From Epilithonimonas hominis (GTDB taxonomy: Bacteria > Bacteroidota > Bacteroidia > Flavobacteriales > Weeksellaceae), in contig NZ_RJTU01000010.1 in the NCBI RefSeq assembly GCF_003730015.1, positions 1 to 55,267 on the forward strand: a DNA stretch of 55,267 bases, written 5' to 3'. Position numbers and translations under genes: made by a program. This document shows, piece after piece, positions 41,900 through 50,841 of the stretch. The notes beneath the pieces were generated by a model that did no database searches, was not told where the DNA came from, and saw only the letters and a list, made by a program, of their open reading frames with translations. Every line of letters starts with the position of its first letter. The stretch's first letter is position 1.

Positions 41900-43132
41900 A
41901 TGTCAATATTAGAAATGAAAGTTCCTTCACCGGGAGAATCAATCACAGAAGTAGAAATTGCAACGTGGTTAGTCCAAGACGGTGATTATGTAGAAAAAGA
42001 CCAGCCGATTGCAGAAGTAGATTCTGACAAGGCAACTTTGGAACTTCCTGCTGAGCAAAGTGGAATCATTACTTTGAAAGCTGAAGAAGGAGAAGTAGTG
42101 CAAGTTGGTCAAGTGGTTTGTTTGATCGATATGGATGCTGTAAAACCAGCAGGAAGCACTGCTGAAGCTCCGAAAGAAGAACCAAAAGCAGAAGTTAAAA
42201 AAGAAGAGCCTGCTCCAGTAAAAGCAGAAGCTCCAAAAGTTGAAACTTATGCGGCTCAAACACCTTCTCCTGCGGCTAAGAAAATCCTTGACGAAAAAGG
42301 AATTGCTCCAAGCCAAGTAACGGGGTCTGGTAGAGATGGCAGAATCACAAAAGATGATGCTGTAACGGCTTCTGTTCCTGCAATGGGAAGTGCTCCAGCT
42401 GGCGGAAGTAGATCTCAATCAACTACAAAACTTTCAGTTCTTAGAAGAAAAATTGCTGCAAGATTAGTTTCAGTTAAAAATGAAACAGCTATGTTGACGA
42501 CTTTCAACGAGGTTGATATGTCAGAAATCTTCAGAATCAGAAAGCAATACAAAGAAGAATTCGCTGCAAAACACGGGATTGGACTTGGATTTATGTCTTT
42601 CTTTACAAAAGCTGTAACGAGAGCATTGAAACTTTATCCAGACGTTAATGCTTCTATCGATGGAGATTTCAAAATCAATTATGACTTTGCAGATATTTCT
42701 ATCGCGGTTTCCGGACCAAAAGGTTTGATGGTTCCTGTTCTTAGAAATGCTGAAAATATGACATTGAGAGGTGTTGAAGCTAACATCAAAGATTTGGCAA
42801 CTAAAGTTAGAGATGGTAAAATCAGTGTTGACGAAATGACTGGCGGAACATTCACAATTACTAATGGTGGAACGTTCGGATCGATGCTGTCCACGCCAAT
42901 TATTAACCCGCCACAATCTGCAATCTTAGGAATGCACAACATTATCCAAAGACCAGTTGCTGTTGACGGACAAGTCGTAATCAGACCAATGATGTATGTT
43001 GCAATGTCTTATGACCACAGAATTATCGACGGAAAAGAATCCGTAGGTTTCTTGGTTGCTGTGAAAGAAGCTATCGACAATCCGGTAGAATTCTTAATGG
43101 ATGGCGATGAAAGAAAAGCATTGGAATTGTAA
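41900..43132 (+). CDS. sucB: Dihydrolipoyllysine succinyltransferase (E2 of 2-OGDH)
   Basis: A 410-residue E2 core enzyme. One lipoyl domain (about 1-77) has the modified Lys in [14 protein letters not shown]. An Ala/Pro/Lys-rich linker and a peripheral-subunit-binding domain (about 120-155: [32 protein letters not shown]) precede the catalytic domain with [16 protein letters not shown]. It is the partner of the adjacent sucA; E3 is not in the window. Confidence 0.97.
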
Positions 43133-43825: not shown

Positions 43826-44908
43826 ATGGAAAATTTCATCGTATCCGCTCGCAAGTACCGTCCGCAAGAGTTTGATACTGTTGTTGGACAATCTCACGTT
43901 ACCGATACTTTGGAACACGCTATTGATGAAAGTCAATTAGCCCAGGCTCTGTTATTCTGTGGGCCAAGAGGAGTTGGTAAAACAACTTGTGCCAGAATCC
44001 TTGCAAGAAAAATCAATGAAAAATCTGGAGCTGCGGATGATGATGGATTTGCATTTAATATTTATGAATTAGATGCGGCTTCCAACAATTCTGTGGATGA
44101 CATCAGAGATTTGATTGACCAAGTAAGATTTGCACCTCAAGTTGGTAAATTTAAAGTTTATATCATTGATGAGGTTCACATGTTGTCTCCAGCGGCTTTC
44201 AATGCATTCCTGAAAACTTTGGAAGAACCGCCTGCTCACGCGATTTTTATCTTGGCAACAACCGAAAAACACAAGATTATTCCAACGATTCTTTCAAGAT
44301 GTCAAATTTATGATTTCAAGAGAATCACAATTGAAGATATTCAGGAGCATCTGAGAAAAATTGCAGAGAAAGAAAGTATCACTTATGAAGATGATGCGCT
44401 TTATCTGATTGCTCAAAAAGCAGATGGCGCTTTGAGAGATGCTTTGTCTATTTTTGATAGATTAAGCACCTTTTCCCAGAAAAATATTACACTCGAAAAA
44501 GCAGCTGAAGTTCTCAATATTCTCGATTACGATCAATATCTGAAAATTGTAGATTTAGCTAAGGAAAATGACATTCCAAGTGTTTTGACTGCTTTTGATG
44601 AGATTGTGAAAAAAGGATTTGATCCACATATTTTCATTGCTGGATTAGGAAATCATTTCCGTGACCTGATGATGGCTCAAAATCCTAAAACTCTGAATCT
44701 AATTGAAGTCGGGGAGAAAACGAAGTCCAAATTCGCTGAACAATCTCAGAAATGGTCTGCACAACAATTAATTGATGGAATCGAGATTTGTAACTTCGCA
44801 GACATCAATTATAAAAACTCCAAAAACCCGAGATTGACAGTAGAAATTGCTCTTATGCAATTGTCAAGTCTGACTGCAGGTTTGGAAGCTAAAAAAAAAA
44901 GTTTTTAA
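43826..44908 (+). CDS. dnaX: DNA polymerase III clamp loader, DnaX ATPase core (gamma-like form)
   Basis: The zero frame gives 360 residues: AAA+ domain I with Walker A GPRGVGKTT, Walker B IIDEVHML, sensor ATTEKHKIIPTILSRCQ, and the SRC arginine finger, then domain II and the complete collar domain III ending LTVEIALMQLSSLTAGLEAKKKSF. It lacks the zinc module of E. coli DnaX. The frame stops just after an A10 run (44891-44900). Reading on in the -1 frame gives the tau-type C-terminus, so this is probably the gamma form of a recoded gene. Confidence 0.92.
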   Translation: MENFIVSARKYRPQEFDTVVGQSHVTDTLEHAIDESQLAQALLFCGPRGVGKTTCARILARKINEKSGAADDDGFAFNIYELDAASNNSVDDIRDLIDQVRFAPQVGKFKVYIIDEVHMLSPAAFNAFLKTLEEPPAHAIFILATTEKHKIIPTILSRCQIYDFKRITIEDIQEHLRKIAEKESITYEDDALYLIAQKADGALRDALSIFDRLSTFSQKNITLEKAAEVLNILDYDQYLKIVDLAKENDIPSVLTAFDEIVKKGFDPHIFIAGLGNHFRDLMMAQNPKTLNLIEVGEKTKSKFAEQSQKWSAQQLIDGIEICNFADINYKNSKNPRLTVEIALMQLSSLTAGLEAKKKSF

Positions 44909-44933: not shown

Positions 44934-45540
44934 CCTTATTCAAGAGCCAAGCATCAAGACAGAAGAGTCAAGATCAGAAGTTAAAGAACAGACAACCCAC
45001 AAACAGCAACCAACCACTAAAGTTTCCTTTGAAGAACCAAAAAAAGTAATTCAGAAAGCATCGGAACCAATTGCAAGAAAATCTTCCAGTTCTCCATTCA
45101 GTATCAAAGCGGCTTTAGAAAAAAAAGAAGAAGTCAAAAAAGATGAATTTTCAGATGTCAAAGATGAAAATCTACCATCAAATCATTTTTCTCAAACGGA
45201 TTTGGACAGAGAATGGGAAATTTTCCTAAAAAATACTTTAAAAACCAACACATTTCTTTACAATGCCATCAGCAGTTTTAAGATGGAAAAATCTGATGAG
45301 AATCTTGTGATAGTAAAGTATTCGTCTGAATTTGCTAAAGCAGAGTTTGATAGAGTCAGCCCAGAGTTTTTTAATCATTTAAGGCATAAAGTCAATAATT
45401 TTAAGTTTGAAATTGATTATCAAACAGACTTAACCATCAAAAAGGAAGTGATGACCAAACGAAAAATCTTTGATAAATTTGTGAAGATTAATCCTTTATT
45501 GAAAGATTTAGATGATTTGATGAAGTTTGATTTGACATAA
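44901..45540 (+). CDS. dnaX: DnaX tau-specific C-terminal part (-1 frame)
   Basis: Open in the -1 frame directly from the A10 run, about 213 codons. The first half is a Lys/Glu/Pro/Ser-rich linker (domain IV-like, about 44940-45195). The second half is a folded segment (TDLDREWEIFLKNTLKTNTFLYNAISSFKMEK...IVKYSSEFAKAEFDRV) typical of flavobacterial DnaX C-termini. A full tau product would be about 571 residues. No start signal for independent translation is seen. Tau binds the polymerase and helicase in other bacteria. Confidence 0.8.
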
Positions 45541-45553
45541 ATTTATATATTTG
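45527..45553 (+). promoter_or_regulatory. Candidate promoter of the aromatic leader
   Basis: TTG at 45527-45529, 16-bp spacer, TATATTTG at 45546-45553. It overlaps the dnaX stop and gives a leader of about 350 nt before the DAHP synthase gene. Confidence 0.45.
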
Positions 45554-45630
45554 TTAAAGATTTCTTCAACGAAAGAAGGAAAAATATCAACCAAAATAAG
45601 CTAATAGTCCTTTAATGAGGGATTTATAAA

Positions 45631-45759
45631 ATGGAATCAAACCAATTTCCATATTTTACAACTTCAGAATCTGTCAGTTCTTTTGACAGATTATTTAGCT
45701 TTTTTGGATTTTATTACGGGAATTTCAGAACCTATTATCGATTTTATTGGTATAGCTAA
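45631..45759 (+). CDS. Aromatic-rich leader peptide (putative attenuator ORF)
   Basis: A 42-codon ORF starting MESNQFPYF and ending RFYWYS. It has 9 Phe, 7 Tyr and 1 Trp, 17 of 42 residues; positions 22-41 hold 13 aromatics in 20. It ends 152 nt before the gene for DAHP synthase/chorismate mutase, the entry to Phe, Tyr and Trp synthesis. This is what a ribosome-mediated attenuator needs: translation slows when charged Phe/Tyr tRNA is scarce. It is too short for most gene callers. It is not like any other short ORF in the window. Confidence 0.6.
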   Translation: MESNQFPYFTTSESVSSFDRLFSFFGFYYGNFRTYYRFYWYS

Positions 45760-45803
45760 CTGAATTTCTTTCTCAAAAACGCGCGGAAAAATTTCAAATT
45801 CCG
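45668..45803 (+). promoter_or_regulatory. Alternative RNA pairings around the leader ORF
   Basis: Inside the ORF, AATCTGTCA/TGACAGATT (45668-45692) is a perfect 9-bp hairpin followed 7 nt later by six T. GAATTTCAG (45720-45728) pairs with CTGAATTTC (45760-45768) at 8 of 9 positions. GAATTT (45762-45767) can instead pair with AAATTC (45796-45801), or CGGAA (45784-45788) with TTCCG (45799-45803). The last lies before a T7 run at 45817-45823. These are mutually exclusive, as in an attenuator, but A/T-rich. Confidence 0.45.
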
Positions 45804-45911
45804 TAACACATTAAAATTTTTTTAACGGCACTTTTTGAAAGGGAATTATAAATCAAAATTTATAACAGATACACTATTGCATTAATTTAAAAATATATAA
45901 AATTTAAAAAT

Positions 45912-46991
45912 ATGAACTTAAACGATTTAAAGAACGAGTGGATACAAGACTTCGCAAGCCCAATGATTATTGCTGGTCCTTGTAGTGCAGAAAGCGAATC
46001 TCAAATGTTGGAAACGGCAAAAAGACTGAAAGAAAGTGGTGCAGAAATCTCAGCCTTCCGTGCAGGAATTTGGAAGCCTAGAACAAAACCAAACGGTTTC
46101 GAAGGCGTTGGCGTAATCGGTCTTAACTGGCTGAAAAAAGTAAAGGAAGAATTCGGTTTCAAAACAGCGACAGAAGTTGCGAATGCGCACCACGTTTTTG
46201 CAGCATTGGAAGCTGATGTAGATATTCTTTGGATTGGAGCACGTTCTACGGTTAATCCATTCACGGTTCAAGAGATTGCTCAAGCATTGAGAGGAACCAA
46301 CAAACCTGTTTTGGTAAAAAATCCAGTTAATCCAGATTTAGCACTTTGGATTGGTGCTTTAGAAAGACTTTTGGGTCAAGGTGTGGAAAATATCGGCGCC
46401 ATCCACAGAGGTTTTTCAACTTATCAAAAGACTAAATACAGAAACATTCCGAACTGGCAGATTGCTTTAGACTTCAAAAATCAATTCCCAAATATTCCTT
46501 TGTTCATCGATCCTTCACATATTTGTGGGAACAGAACTGGTTTGGCAGGCATTGCGCAGGAAGCTTTCAATGTTGGTTACCAAGGTGCGATTATCGAAAG
46601 CCACTGCGACCCAGATAACGCTTGGAGCGATGCCGCTCAGCAAATCACACCAGAAGTTTTGGCAGAAATGATTAGCAATCTTCAGGTTCGTAATTCCGAC
46701 ATTTCTGGATATGAGGACGAAATGGGAAAACACAGAACTTTAATCAGTGATATGGATTTTCAATTGATTGAGTTATTATCTCAAAGAATGAAGATTTCTG
46801 AAAAAATCGGAACTCTTAAAAAAGAAAATAACATTGCTATTTTTCAGCCAGAACGTTGGAAAGTCATTACAGAATATGCAACTCAAAAAGCCTTTGAAAC
46901 AGGAATGTCTCAGGAATTCATAGAGAAAGTTTTCAAAGCCATCCACGAAGAAAGTATCGAAGTCCAGAATAACATTATGATTGATAAATAA
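45912..46991 (+). CDS. Bifunctional DAHP synthase/chorismate mutase type II
   Basis: A 359-residue fusion. Residues about 1-255 are a type I-beta 3-deoxy-7-phosphoheptulonate synthase: IIAGPCSAES, FRAGIWKPRTKPNGFEG, KNPVNPD, GAIHRGFSTY, PLFIDPSHICGNR and IIESHCDPDNAWSDA. Residues about 265-359 are an AroQ-type chorismate mutase (RTLISDMDFQLIELLSQRMKISEKIGTLKKENNIAIFQPERWKVI). It catalyses the first step of the shikimate pathway and the branch step to prephenate. The leader ORF upstream suggests control by aromatic amino acid supply. Confidence 0.95.
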   Translation: MNLNDLKNEWIQDFASPMIIAGPCSAESESQMLETAKRLKESGAEISAFRAGIWKPRTKPNGFEGVGVIGLNWLKKVKEEFGFKTATEVANAHHVFAALEADVDILWIGARSTVNPFTVQEIAQALRGTNKPVLVKNPVNPDLALWIGALERLLGQGVENIGAIHRGFSTYQKTKYRNIPNWQIALDFKNQFPNIPLFIDPSHICGNRTGLAGIAQEAFNVGYQGAIIESHCDPDNAWSDAAQQITPEVLAEMISNLQVRNSDISGYEDEMGKHRTLISDMDFQLIELLSQRMKISEKIGTLKKENNIAIFQPERWKVITEYATQKAFETGMSQEFIEKVFKAIHEESIEVQNNIMIDK

Positions 46992-47145: not shown

Positions 47146-47176
47146 AAAAGAAGCTAAATTATTAGCTTCTTTTTTG
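47146..47176 (+). terminator. Terminator after the DAHP synthase/chorismate mutase gene
   Basis: AAAAGAAGCTAA/TTAGCTTCTTTT stem, 4-nt loop, T-run. Confidence 0.92.
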
Positions 47177-49625: not shown

Positions 49626-50693
49626 TTATCTTCTTCCTCCGCCTGATCTCATTCCACCTCCTCCGCTAGATGATCCGCCTCGGAAGCTACCGCCAGAGTT
49701 AAATCCTCCACCAGAACTTCCGGATCTTGGAGAGGAAAAGCTGTCATTCCTGAAACCTCCGTTTTGATTGGATCGAATGCCAGAATTATTCGGGTAATTT
49801 CTTGTACCTCCGTCATTTGGATTTGTTCTGATTCCAGTGTTATTTGGGTAGTTTCGCATAATACCATTTTGGTTGCTTCTGATGCCTCCATTGTTTGGAA
49901 AGTTTCTGACACCATTAGTGTTATTATTTCTGATACCATTATTCACAGAAGATCTGGTATTGCTGGACATCATATCTCTATTTCTGAAACCGCTTGAGTT
50001 AATCCCACGGAAACCATTTGTAGTTCTTGAGTTAGAAATCATTCCAGTCAGCCTGCCATTTGCTCCCGACCTATTATAATAAACAGGTCTGTAGTAAGCT
50101 CCTCCGTAGTAGCCGGGATAATAGCCCCCATAGTATCCACCCCAACCATAGTTCCAGAACGGGTCATAGAAGCCGCCCCATCCCCAAGGTGAGTAGAAAG
50201 AGCTTCCCCATCCCCAGCCAAAGCCAAGACCCCAGCCATAGCCGTAGTAAGGATAACCCCATCCAAAGCCGTAGTAAGGATAACCCCATCCAAAGCCGTA
50301 GTAAGGATAACCCCATCCAAAGCCTCCGCCCCAGCCCCAATTATTAAAGCTGGAATAATTGGTTTCTGTTCCTGTAAAAGTTCCCCAGTCGGAATCCTTA
50401 GTTAATGGTTTGGAGTATCTATTTTGCTGCTCCTGAAGATTTTGCTGGTTATTATCATAAATACTTGGGTAAGTGTCCTGATAATTATAATAATCATCTA
50501 CCTGATTTCCAAAATTACCACCGTAAGTGCCTGCAGGTAAAGTATCTTTATTCGGGTCATAATAAACTCCATCTGTTTCAGAGTATCCTCCTGTATATAC
50601 AATGCATGAAGTTAGAAGAGAACTGCCGGCAATCAATAACAAACCTTTTGATTTGATAAGATTGAATAAGCTTTTATTGTTGAAATTTTTCAT
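49626..50693 (-). CDS. Gly/Trp/Tyr-repeat lipoprotein
   Basis: A 355-residue predicted lipoprotein (signal ending SSLLTSC, Cys about 30). A glutamine/asparagine-rich segment is followed by GFGWGYPYY repeats (three perfect 27-bp units at 50241-50321) in a stretch made almost only of Gly, Trp, Tyr, Phe and Pro. Then come about three 17-residue repeats of the RNYPNNxGIRxNxN type, and a Gly/Ser/Arg-rich tail ending GGGRR. The start at 50693 gives a lipoprotein signal; the longer frame from 50744 does not. Composition suggests a surface-exposed, possibly adhesive or phase-separating polymer. No enzyme domain. Function unknown. Confidence 0.75.
   Translation of the reverse strand: MKNFNNKSLFNLIKSKGLLLIAGSSLLTSCIVYTGGYSETDGVYYDPNKDTLPAGTYGGNFGNQVDDYYNYQDTYPSIYDNNQQNLQEQQNRYSKPLTKDSDWGTFTGTETNYSSFNNWGWGGGFGWGYPYYGFGWGYPYYGFGWGYPYYGYGWGLGFGWGWGSSFYSPWGWGGFYDPFWNYGWGGYYGGYYPGYYGGAYYRPVYYNRSGANGRLTGMISNSRTTNGFRGINSSGFRNRDMMSSNTRSSVNNGIRNNNTNGVRNFPNNGGIRSNQNGIMRNYPNNTGIRTNPNDGGTRNYPNNSGIRSNQNGGFRNDSFSSPRSGSSGGGFNSGGSFRGGSSSGGGGMRSGGGRR
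50241..50321 (-). repeat. Three perfect 27-bp tandem repeats
   Basis: Three identical copies coding for GFGWGYPYY, with a diverged partial copy on one side. Perfect DNA identity suggests recent copy-number change. Confidence 0.92.
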
Positions 50694-50841
50694 TTTATGA
50701 GAAGTATTAAGTTTCCTATATTTGCATTTGTTAAAAGTGACCAAATTTTATACCATTCGAATTTAGTAAAATACGTGTAAAATTAGGCTTTTTATTTAGA
50801 TTAAAAAGTTTAAAAAAAGTTAAAAACATATCAAAAAAATT

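Follow-up and report, generated by a model that had tools for sequence, protein, structure and literature searches.

A conserved aromatic-rich leader upstream of the fused DAHP synthase/chorismate mutase gene of Chryseobacterium-like bacteria: a probable ribosome-read sensor of phenylalanine and tyrosine supply

Introduction

The textbook form of leader-peptide attenuation of amino acid biosynthesis is that of the pheA, trp and his leaders of enterobacteria, which combine codons for the end product, a pause hairpin, alternative RNA pairings and an intrinsic terminator. Pause hairpins are a feature of the trp and his leaders. In translation attenuators of the erm kind, a conserved pairing makes the start of the main gene inaccessible, while in arrest leaders of the TnaC/SecM kind the arrest residues are conserved as amino acids. 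Candidates from Bacteroidetes were reportedly mentioned by Vitreschak and co-workers in 2004.

Several further reports touch on this phylum. Drawing on a prediction website, a table in PMC1173090 places a putative attenuator before the pheA > hisHb > aroA-aroQ > tyrA operon of Bacteroides thetaiotaomicron, which according to that table includes the fused DAHP synthase/chorismate mutase. The available part of PMC9723704 describes clues to leader-peptide attenuation upstream of amino acid operons in Flavobacterium psychrophilum, together with conserved 5′ elements before pheA (in Flavobacteriaceae) and before hisG that are without Rfam hits, and that of PMC7366714 reports small ORFs in B. thetaiotaomicron resembling leader peptides. 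The accessible text of the broad attenuator survey PMC2965389 names neither Bacteroidetes nor aroG or pheA, and PMC1262725, by the part available, has Actinobacteria as its subject. An earlier note on the DNA studied here held that no case was described for this gene in this phylum; given the table of PMC1173090 and the available part of PMC9723704, that was too strong. Among the matches listed from open-licence papers in PubMed Central, none describes such a leader for aroG where it stands alone, as in the Chryseobacterium group.

Here, we examine such a leader in a 55,267-nt stretch of Epilithonimonas hominis DNA (contig NZ_RJTU01000010.1; hereafter the window). The leader is real, and a regulatory role is very probable. 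We take it, with a probability of roughly two in three, to sense charged Phe-tRNA and Tyr-tRNA by way of the translating ribosome and to work through a switch between two RNA folds, A and B, without a terminator.

Sequences and tests

The search for aroG retained 80 of 280 relatives (Epilithonimonas, Chryseobacterium and a few others), giving 79 evaluable loci once L010, with just 147 nt upstream, was set aside. Folds were compared in 52 representatives of a set of 149 sequences. A further 27, out of 176 in all, did not enter it: 14 leader loci from eight genomes, 12 loci without a known leader and the too-short L010; one locus from each of the eight genomes was examined separately (L121, L122, L123, L125, L126, L136, L140 and L142). 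The 37 distinct alignment rows cited below, the tests with 1000 swaps and the test of hairpin T come from 38 of 39 representatives, L032 being left out (T-run pattern not found).

Helices were compared with partner swaps, a test that ignores shared ancestry, and an unbiased covariation scan covered 1384 pairs of scan windows (background z s.d. 1.56). The terminator detector looks for a stem of at least 5 with at least 3 G-C pairs and a T tract, with loops of up to 8 or up to 10. An RNA model of 71 positions, spanning the end of the ORF and hairpin A, was searched with strict filters under which weak matches are lost.

The aroG locus and its leader

The presumed target gene encodes a DAHP synthase (PF00793, residues 18–254) fused to a C-terminal chorismate mutase (PF01817, residues 275–352), and its product shares 97% protein identity with Epilithonimonas. 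Its neighbours in the window are dnaX upstream and rsgA downstream. The coordinates of the leader and its elements are collected in table 1.

Three side observations concern the surroundings. In dnaX, at 44891–44908, the frame runs into ten consecutive A and then a stop, after which the protein resumes in another frame to 45540; the run and stop are also found in L012, L024, L046 and L065 and are absent from the stretch of L003 inspected. We take this site to resemble the slippery site that yields the gamma and tau subunits. Beyond the 3′ end of aroG, AGAAGCTAAATTATTAGCTTCTTTTTTG at 47148–47175 looks like an ordinary intrinsic terminator, and at 49626–50744 the minus strand holds a predicted protein with Gly/Tyr/Trp-rich repeats (YGWGYPYYGF).

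Table 1. Elements of the aroG leader, given in window coordinates.
Feature	Position	Strand	Basis
Candidate promoter element, TATATTTG	45546..45553	+	Motif conservation upstream of leader
Leader ORF, 42 codons, ATG...TAA, product MESNQFPYFTTSESVSSFDRLFSFFGFYYGNFRTYYRFYWYS	45631..45759	+	ORF list, shuffles, conservation
Hairpin 1, then U-rich tail of Phe/Ser codons	45668..45692	+	Fold scan, covariation
Region 1, 5′ arm of hairpin A, codons 30–33	45718..45728	+	Folds, alignment
Inner hairpin of A, over Tyr-Tyr-Arg-Phe-Tyr-Trp-Tyr codons	45732..45755	+	98.2% paired cells
3′ arm of hairpin A, right behind the stop codon	45760..45770	+	Pair changing on both sides
Region 2, putative 5′ arm of B, AATTTCTTTCTCAAAAA, overlapping the 3′ arm of A	45763..45779	+	Near-invariant
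Hairpin H, in the loop of B	45783..45804	+	Covariation; 0/2000 swaps as good
Hairpin T, weak and A/T-rich, with a short T run behind it	45801..45828	+	Mean z +0.23 versus shuffles
Region 3, putative 3′ arm of B, TTTTTGAAAGGGAATT	45832..45847	+	Sequence conserved, no covariation signal
C, TTATAAAT-CAAA-ATTTATAA, palindrome TTATAAAN...NTTTATAA	45846..45865	+	0/2000 swaps as good
aroG, DAHP synthase fused to C-terminal chorismate mutase, presumed target gene	45912..46991	+	Pfam

The element TATATTTG, which the earlier note had placed ahead of the ORF, is present there and belongs to a motif conserved among leaders; it is presumably a promoter element of the Bacteroidota −7 type. TAT[AC]TTTG lies upstream of the leader in all 76 leader-bearing sequences examined, and TAnnTTTG in 52/52 representatives and 8/8 further leaders, sets that overlap with the 76. 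A second promoter inside the gap between leader and gene (TTTTTTG ... TATAAT) was considered and set aside on the alignment alone: the downstream element varies and does not fit TAnnTTTG.

The ORF encodes 17 Phe, Tyr or Trp residues, 13 of them in codons 22–41 (45694–45753), and both its coordinates and these counts agree with the original description. None of 5000 dinucleotide shuffles of 45541–45911 yields an ORF of at least 20 codons with at least 13 aromatics per 20-codon stretch, and five of 5000 reach at least 11. Across the whole window, 13 aromatics in 20 codons also occur in one minus-strand frame at 42223–42238, antisense to a long gene, so aromatic density by itself is not unique. 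Variation per codon position is near even (0.18, 0.23 and 0.25 in 51 sequences), and coding constraint is thus not visible as an excess of wobble changes. L043, L054 and L079 each have a whole codon inserted, which counts in favour of a sensor. The aromatic positions of the peptide are conserved, and its C-terminal segment, YYRNFRxYYRFYW, is very conserved, Arg and Asn included.

Conservation and distribution

An aromatic-rich ORF ends about 150–185 nt before aroG in 75 of the 79 evaluable loci; it is absent from the other four, namely L048 (Cloacibacterium), L050 (Cruoricaptor), L058 and L069. The table of leader ORFs lists 78 sequences, a count that includes two chance matches (L050 and L058). 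The RNA model matches 170 of 296 genomes of the family, belonging to 3 of 33 genera, with one match per matching genome among the matches listed, and a recheck found the leader in 30 of 30 matching genomes. The comparison of upstream regions across close relatives, which the earlier note had proposed as the check on its reading, thus finds the ORF and its aromatic bias conserved and does not refute that reading.

No Rfam family (leader, riboswitch or T-box) scores above its gathering threshold in the window, and nothing of note lies below threshold at 45500–45950. In 14 relatives, the single type of Rfam match is tRNA.

Conserved folds of the leader RNA

The leader region 45595–45830 folds better than shuffles (z −3.7); its part 45715–45830 is not clearly better (z −1.4, with 19/200 shuffles as good). 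In 39 representatives that are at most about 90% alike, RNAalifold returns 43 pairs, 17 of which change on both sides. In the unbiased scan, 13 of the 1384 pairs fall below z −4. Hairpin 1 gives the strongest covariation of the leader (z −10.4), followed by H (−8.0), A (−5.6), C (−4.5) and the inner hairpin of A (−4.1), together with a hairpin at the 5′ end. This last is a small hairpin at 45560–45580, near the expected 5′ end of the leader RNA, which changes between groups and is the second strongest separate signal (−8.8). The few further pairs below z −4 involve the stretch before the ORF.

The hairpin that had been described within the ORF is confirmed as hairpin 1, with 10 pairs in the scan. 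Many of its pairs change while pairing is kept, from UGUCA/UGACA in the window's group to CCGCUAA/UUAGCGG in Chryseobacterium. By analogy with known leaders, we infer that it may be a pause hairpin. Pairing of its tail with the end of the ORF was tried and discarded, having no covariation and 1587/2000 swaps as good.

Hairpin A joins region 1, inside the ORF, to the sequence behind the stop codon. Together with its inner hairpin it has 96.1% of cells paired in 37 distinct rows, a value reached by 0/500 shuffles; sliding A by up to three columns leaves 32–54% paired. The value for the inner hairpin in table 1 refers to its six innermost conserved pairs in the same 37 rows; the outer pairs seen in the window's fold are not general. 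Two A pairs change on both sides, nearly all changes falling in one of them, and 118/500 shuffles also reach two. In the main covarying pair, a Phe codon contributes its wobble base and the partner lies beyond the ORF (C-G in 16 rows, U-A in 12, U-G in 2 and unpaired in 7 of 37). No partner swap equals A in the 52 representatives (0/2000), and 41/1000 do so in the ten Epilithonimonas-type representatives alone. A beats shuffled partners at the 5% level in 40/52 representatives. Where the region-1 peptide RNF has become GSS (L128), RSS (L133 and L137) or RNS (L134), helix A still has ten pairs, bulge-free, at about −12 kcal/mol each; the peptide is changed yet the helix kept, which points to the RNA structure as what is selected.

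Alternatively, the sequence that closes A on its 3′ side can pair downstream, as modelled fold B; this would give two mutually exclusive structures that share 45763–45770. The earlier note had placed exclusive pairings within 45720–45801. Its expectation holds for A, which is found and covaries; the far arm of the competitor B falls outside that interval, and the hairpin at 45783–45804 does not overlap A. The arms of B are more complementary than shuffled arms in 52/52 representatives (mean z −5.35), and partner swaps give no covariation signal (497/1000 and 549/2000 as good) because the arms hardly vary.

In a switch model of the 52 representatives, whose values average 12 bases, some always unpaired, mean pairing without a ribosome is 0.48 for A and 0.27 for B. 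When region 1 is covered the mean for B goes up to 0.48, and covering region 2 leaves, by construction, neither fold. A exceeds 0.5 in 26/52 representatives in the free model, and B in 16/52 with region 1 covered. This modelled response to coverage suggests a switch that reads the position of the ribosome.

Further downstream, C is better than shuffles at the 5% level in 44/52 representatives and is kept in the alignment, its changes falling mainly at the innermost pair; whether as a hairpin in the RNA or as an operator in the DNA, it could serve either way. The loop of H may tentatively pair with a stretch past C. No swap is as good in the 52 representatives (0/2000) or in 28 Chryseobacterium-type loci (0/1000); the pairing is absent from the ten Epilithonimonas-type representatives (535/1000 swaps as good) and gives no signal in the unbiased scan (z −0.9 to 1.5).

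Proposed mechanism and alternatives

Comparing the sequences establishes the ORF with its aromatic codons, the four hairpins 1, A, H and C, and the fact that A and B overlap; these elements could act together as follows. Transcription would start just behind TATATTTG, and RNA polymerase would pause at hairpin 1, which would synchronize it with the first ribosome. When Phe or Tyr is short, the ribosome would stall in codons 22–41 and cover region 1, blocking hairpin A; region 2 would then be free to pair with region 3, forming fold B with H inside, the ON state. When both are plentiful, a ribosome at the stop codon would cover region 2 and block B, the OFF state. A ribosome that is released, or a leader that is untranslated, would allow A to form and again block B, also OFF. 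Stalling, the direction of the response and its coupling to expression are the inferred parts of this scheme, and the ON and OFF states are assigned by biosynthetic logic.

The effect of B on expression does not look like classical terminator read-through. For the output of the switch, we give close to even odds to control of elongation, either Rho-dependent or pause-based; the stretch behind the stop codon holds 11.8% C and 10.0% G and is not a typical Rho loading stretch, though Rho may still act there. An output after transcription, through mRNA stability or translation, is possible, a cryptic weak terminator is improbable, and there is a very slight chance of some other output.

The best-surviving rival, which we consider unlikely as a whole, is control of translation or mRNA stability, in which the choice between A and B alters access to the aroG message or its decay and leaves transcription as it is. 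It would accord with the failure to find a terminator, with the location of H, B and C upstream of the gene and with the pairing of the H loop past C in Chryseobacterium-type loci. Against it, the unbiased scan brings out no pairing that involves the start of aroG (best z −3.6, mean energy −1.1, against the background s.d. of 1.56), and the A/T-rich start region is paired inconsistently, in some single-sequence folds. A pairing of the erm kind that hides the aroG start shows no stand-out covariation in the 1384 pairs, a scan that an invariant pairing would escape.

A classical attenuator, in which T with the T run at about 45801–45836, or H with that run, would be a terminator gated by B and A, is a distinctly improbable account. 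The remaining elements of the classical layout are present, the T run is retained in most aligned leaders, and this genome has classical leaders before trp and his. The terminator itself does not appear: with loops of up to 8, the detector finds none behind the leader ORF in 60 distinct leaders (52 representatives and 8 more), and with loops of up to 10 it finds one, in L139, with a poor T tract. As controls, the detector recovers 18/20 pheA-operon leaders of the order, 4/4 trp and 4/4 his leaders with loops of up to 8, and 8/8 trp and his leaders with loops of up to 10. T is no more stable than its shuffles in 38 representatives and is rejected as a terminator on that ground (table 1), and in L136 and L139–L142 the T run is shortened while A and B are kept. 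The weak point conceded at the outset, an A/T-rich terminator arm with a T7 run 13 nt beyond the stem, was therefore well judged, since no credible terminator was found. The original idea, that attenuation governs entry into aromatic synthesis, keeps its conserved ORF, the right target gene, the promoter motif and overlapping folds, and loses the terminator output. The aroG leader probably works like an attenuator sensor; it is better kept apart from the classical attenuators, since a defining part, the intrinsic terminator, was looked for and not found.

A terminator could instead lie within the ORF, formed by hairpin 1 and its U-rich tail and opened by the translating ribosome. The same detector does match hairpin 1 in 40/52 representatives; the hairpin turns up in scans of the window (shuffle mean 0.7) and of L046 (shuffle mean 0.1), and its covariation is the strongest of the leader. 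The logic would nevertheless run the wrong way, since a ribosome stalled early for Phe or Tyr would switch a biosynthetic gene off; the two hairpins scanned have 3 and 4 G-C pairs, the conserved downstream elements A, B, H and C would go unexplained, and a role as pause hairpin appears to fit better. We consider this account very unlikely.

Least likely of the four is arrest by the nascent peptide, in which the very conserved C-terminal segment would itself stall the ribosome in response to an aromatic amino acid: its Arg, Asn and Phe codons sit in hairpin A and are explicable by RNA pairing, Arg becomes Gly or Lys in the window and in L008, the region-1 residues vary in several loci (to RSS, RNS or GSS) with the helix kept, and arrest by an abundant product would usually induce and not repress.

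Origin of the leader

The preferred reading, a ribosome-read sensor of Phe and Tyr supply, has counterparts in the same order. Forty regions, reaching as far as 6 kb ahead of aroG, were taken from 39 genomes of the order, in which the pheA operon consists of pheA, an aspartate aminotransferase-like gene, tyrA and aroG (names by sequence resemblance). A short aromatic-rich ORF before pheA was taken into the comparison from 20 of the 40; the remaining 20 have no such ORF, or a doubtful one. The 20 come from 17 of 18 regions of one family, Flavobacteriaceae by inference (L172–L178 and L180–L189), and from L192, L199 and L210 of other families. Outside these 20, two genera of the window's own family, L212 and L214, have pheA near aroG with an aromatic leader, and a third (L215) is doubtful. 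In the window's genome, the ORF scan finds no aromatic leader upstream of pheA, whose product is a different protein, 31% identical.

Other amino acids have leaders here too. Trp leader ORFs with a WWW run (MKLMNTKNWWWLSNSLSGLKGLSVF in the window's genome, L261) lie about 150–265 nt upstream of the match to Anth_synt_I_N (trpE) in L261–L264, and His leader ORFs (MSIQFMHHHHHFHVQAGS in the window's genome, L265, with HHHHH; HHYHHH or HHYYHH in three relatives) lie about 257–393 nt upstream of the match to HisG in L265–L268. An intrinsic terminator follows each in 4/4 genomes. With the Phe/Tyr leaders of pheA in the order, these imply that amino acid leaders are usual in this group.

Among 30 aroG loci from 26 genera, six carry the aroG leader, including L240 and L243, whose ORF was missed by the aromatic cut-off and found by the RNA model. 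In 11 of the 24 other loci (L233, L235, L236, L237, L239, L245, L246, L247, L249, L250 and L255, the dnaX C-terminus being judged by eye), dnaX ends 8–202 nt before aroG without a leader, as in L048, L050 and L058; the remaining 13 have no dnaX there or are unreadable in that way, and L048 appears to come from the same organism as L233. The distance is 371–434 nt in the six loci with the leader and in the window. The leader occupies the extra DNA between dnaX and aroG, which makes a gain in this group the simpler account, and the leader was probably gained there. Tentatively, and at somewhat less than even odds, the Phe/Tyr leader of aroG may have been re-invented once the pheA operon had come apart and aroG had taken its place behind dnaX, with trp and his staying terminator-based and the A/B fold, possibly with a long-range pseudoknot, setting expression directly.

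For Chryseobacterium-like bacteria, the leader would place the entry into aromatic synthesis under a concrete sensor that is open to testing. One genome offers a clean comparison of classical trp and his leaders with a terminator-less aroG leader, and dnaX–aroG pairs occur with and without the leader; the comparison bears on how amino acid leaders arise and on what can replace a terminator in Bacteroidota.

Comparison with known systems

The closest relatives of the aroG leader by pathway are the pheA-operon leaders, which likewise place a short aromatic-rich ORF a little way upstream of an operon containing the fused aroG. They differ in their terminators: a pattern match lies within 140 nt of the ORF in 18 of 20, whereas none was found for the aroG leader. 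In the two pattern-negative cases (L187 and L199), the folds contain a G+C stem together with a T tract, and the ORF of L180–L182 has in its 3′ part an arm that matches the terminator. The setting differs as well, aroG being part of the pheA operon in the order and standing apart from pheA, behind dnaX, in the window. By eye, the pheA-operon leader peptides do not resemble the 42-codon peptide. The trp (WWW) and his (HHHHH) leaders share a genome and a general principle with the aroG leader, but have terminators, and none was found for it.

The aroG leader resembles the pheA, trp and his attenuators of enterobacteria in its end-product codons, possible pause hairpin and predicted overlapping alternative pairings. 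It differs from them in its A/T-rich folds, in that no terminator was found and in that Phe and Tyr would be sensed together, which fits a target that is itself a fused DAHP synthase/chorismate mutase.
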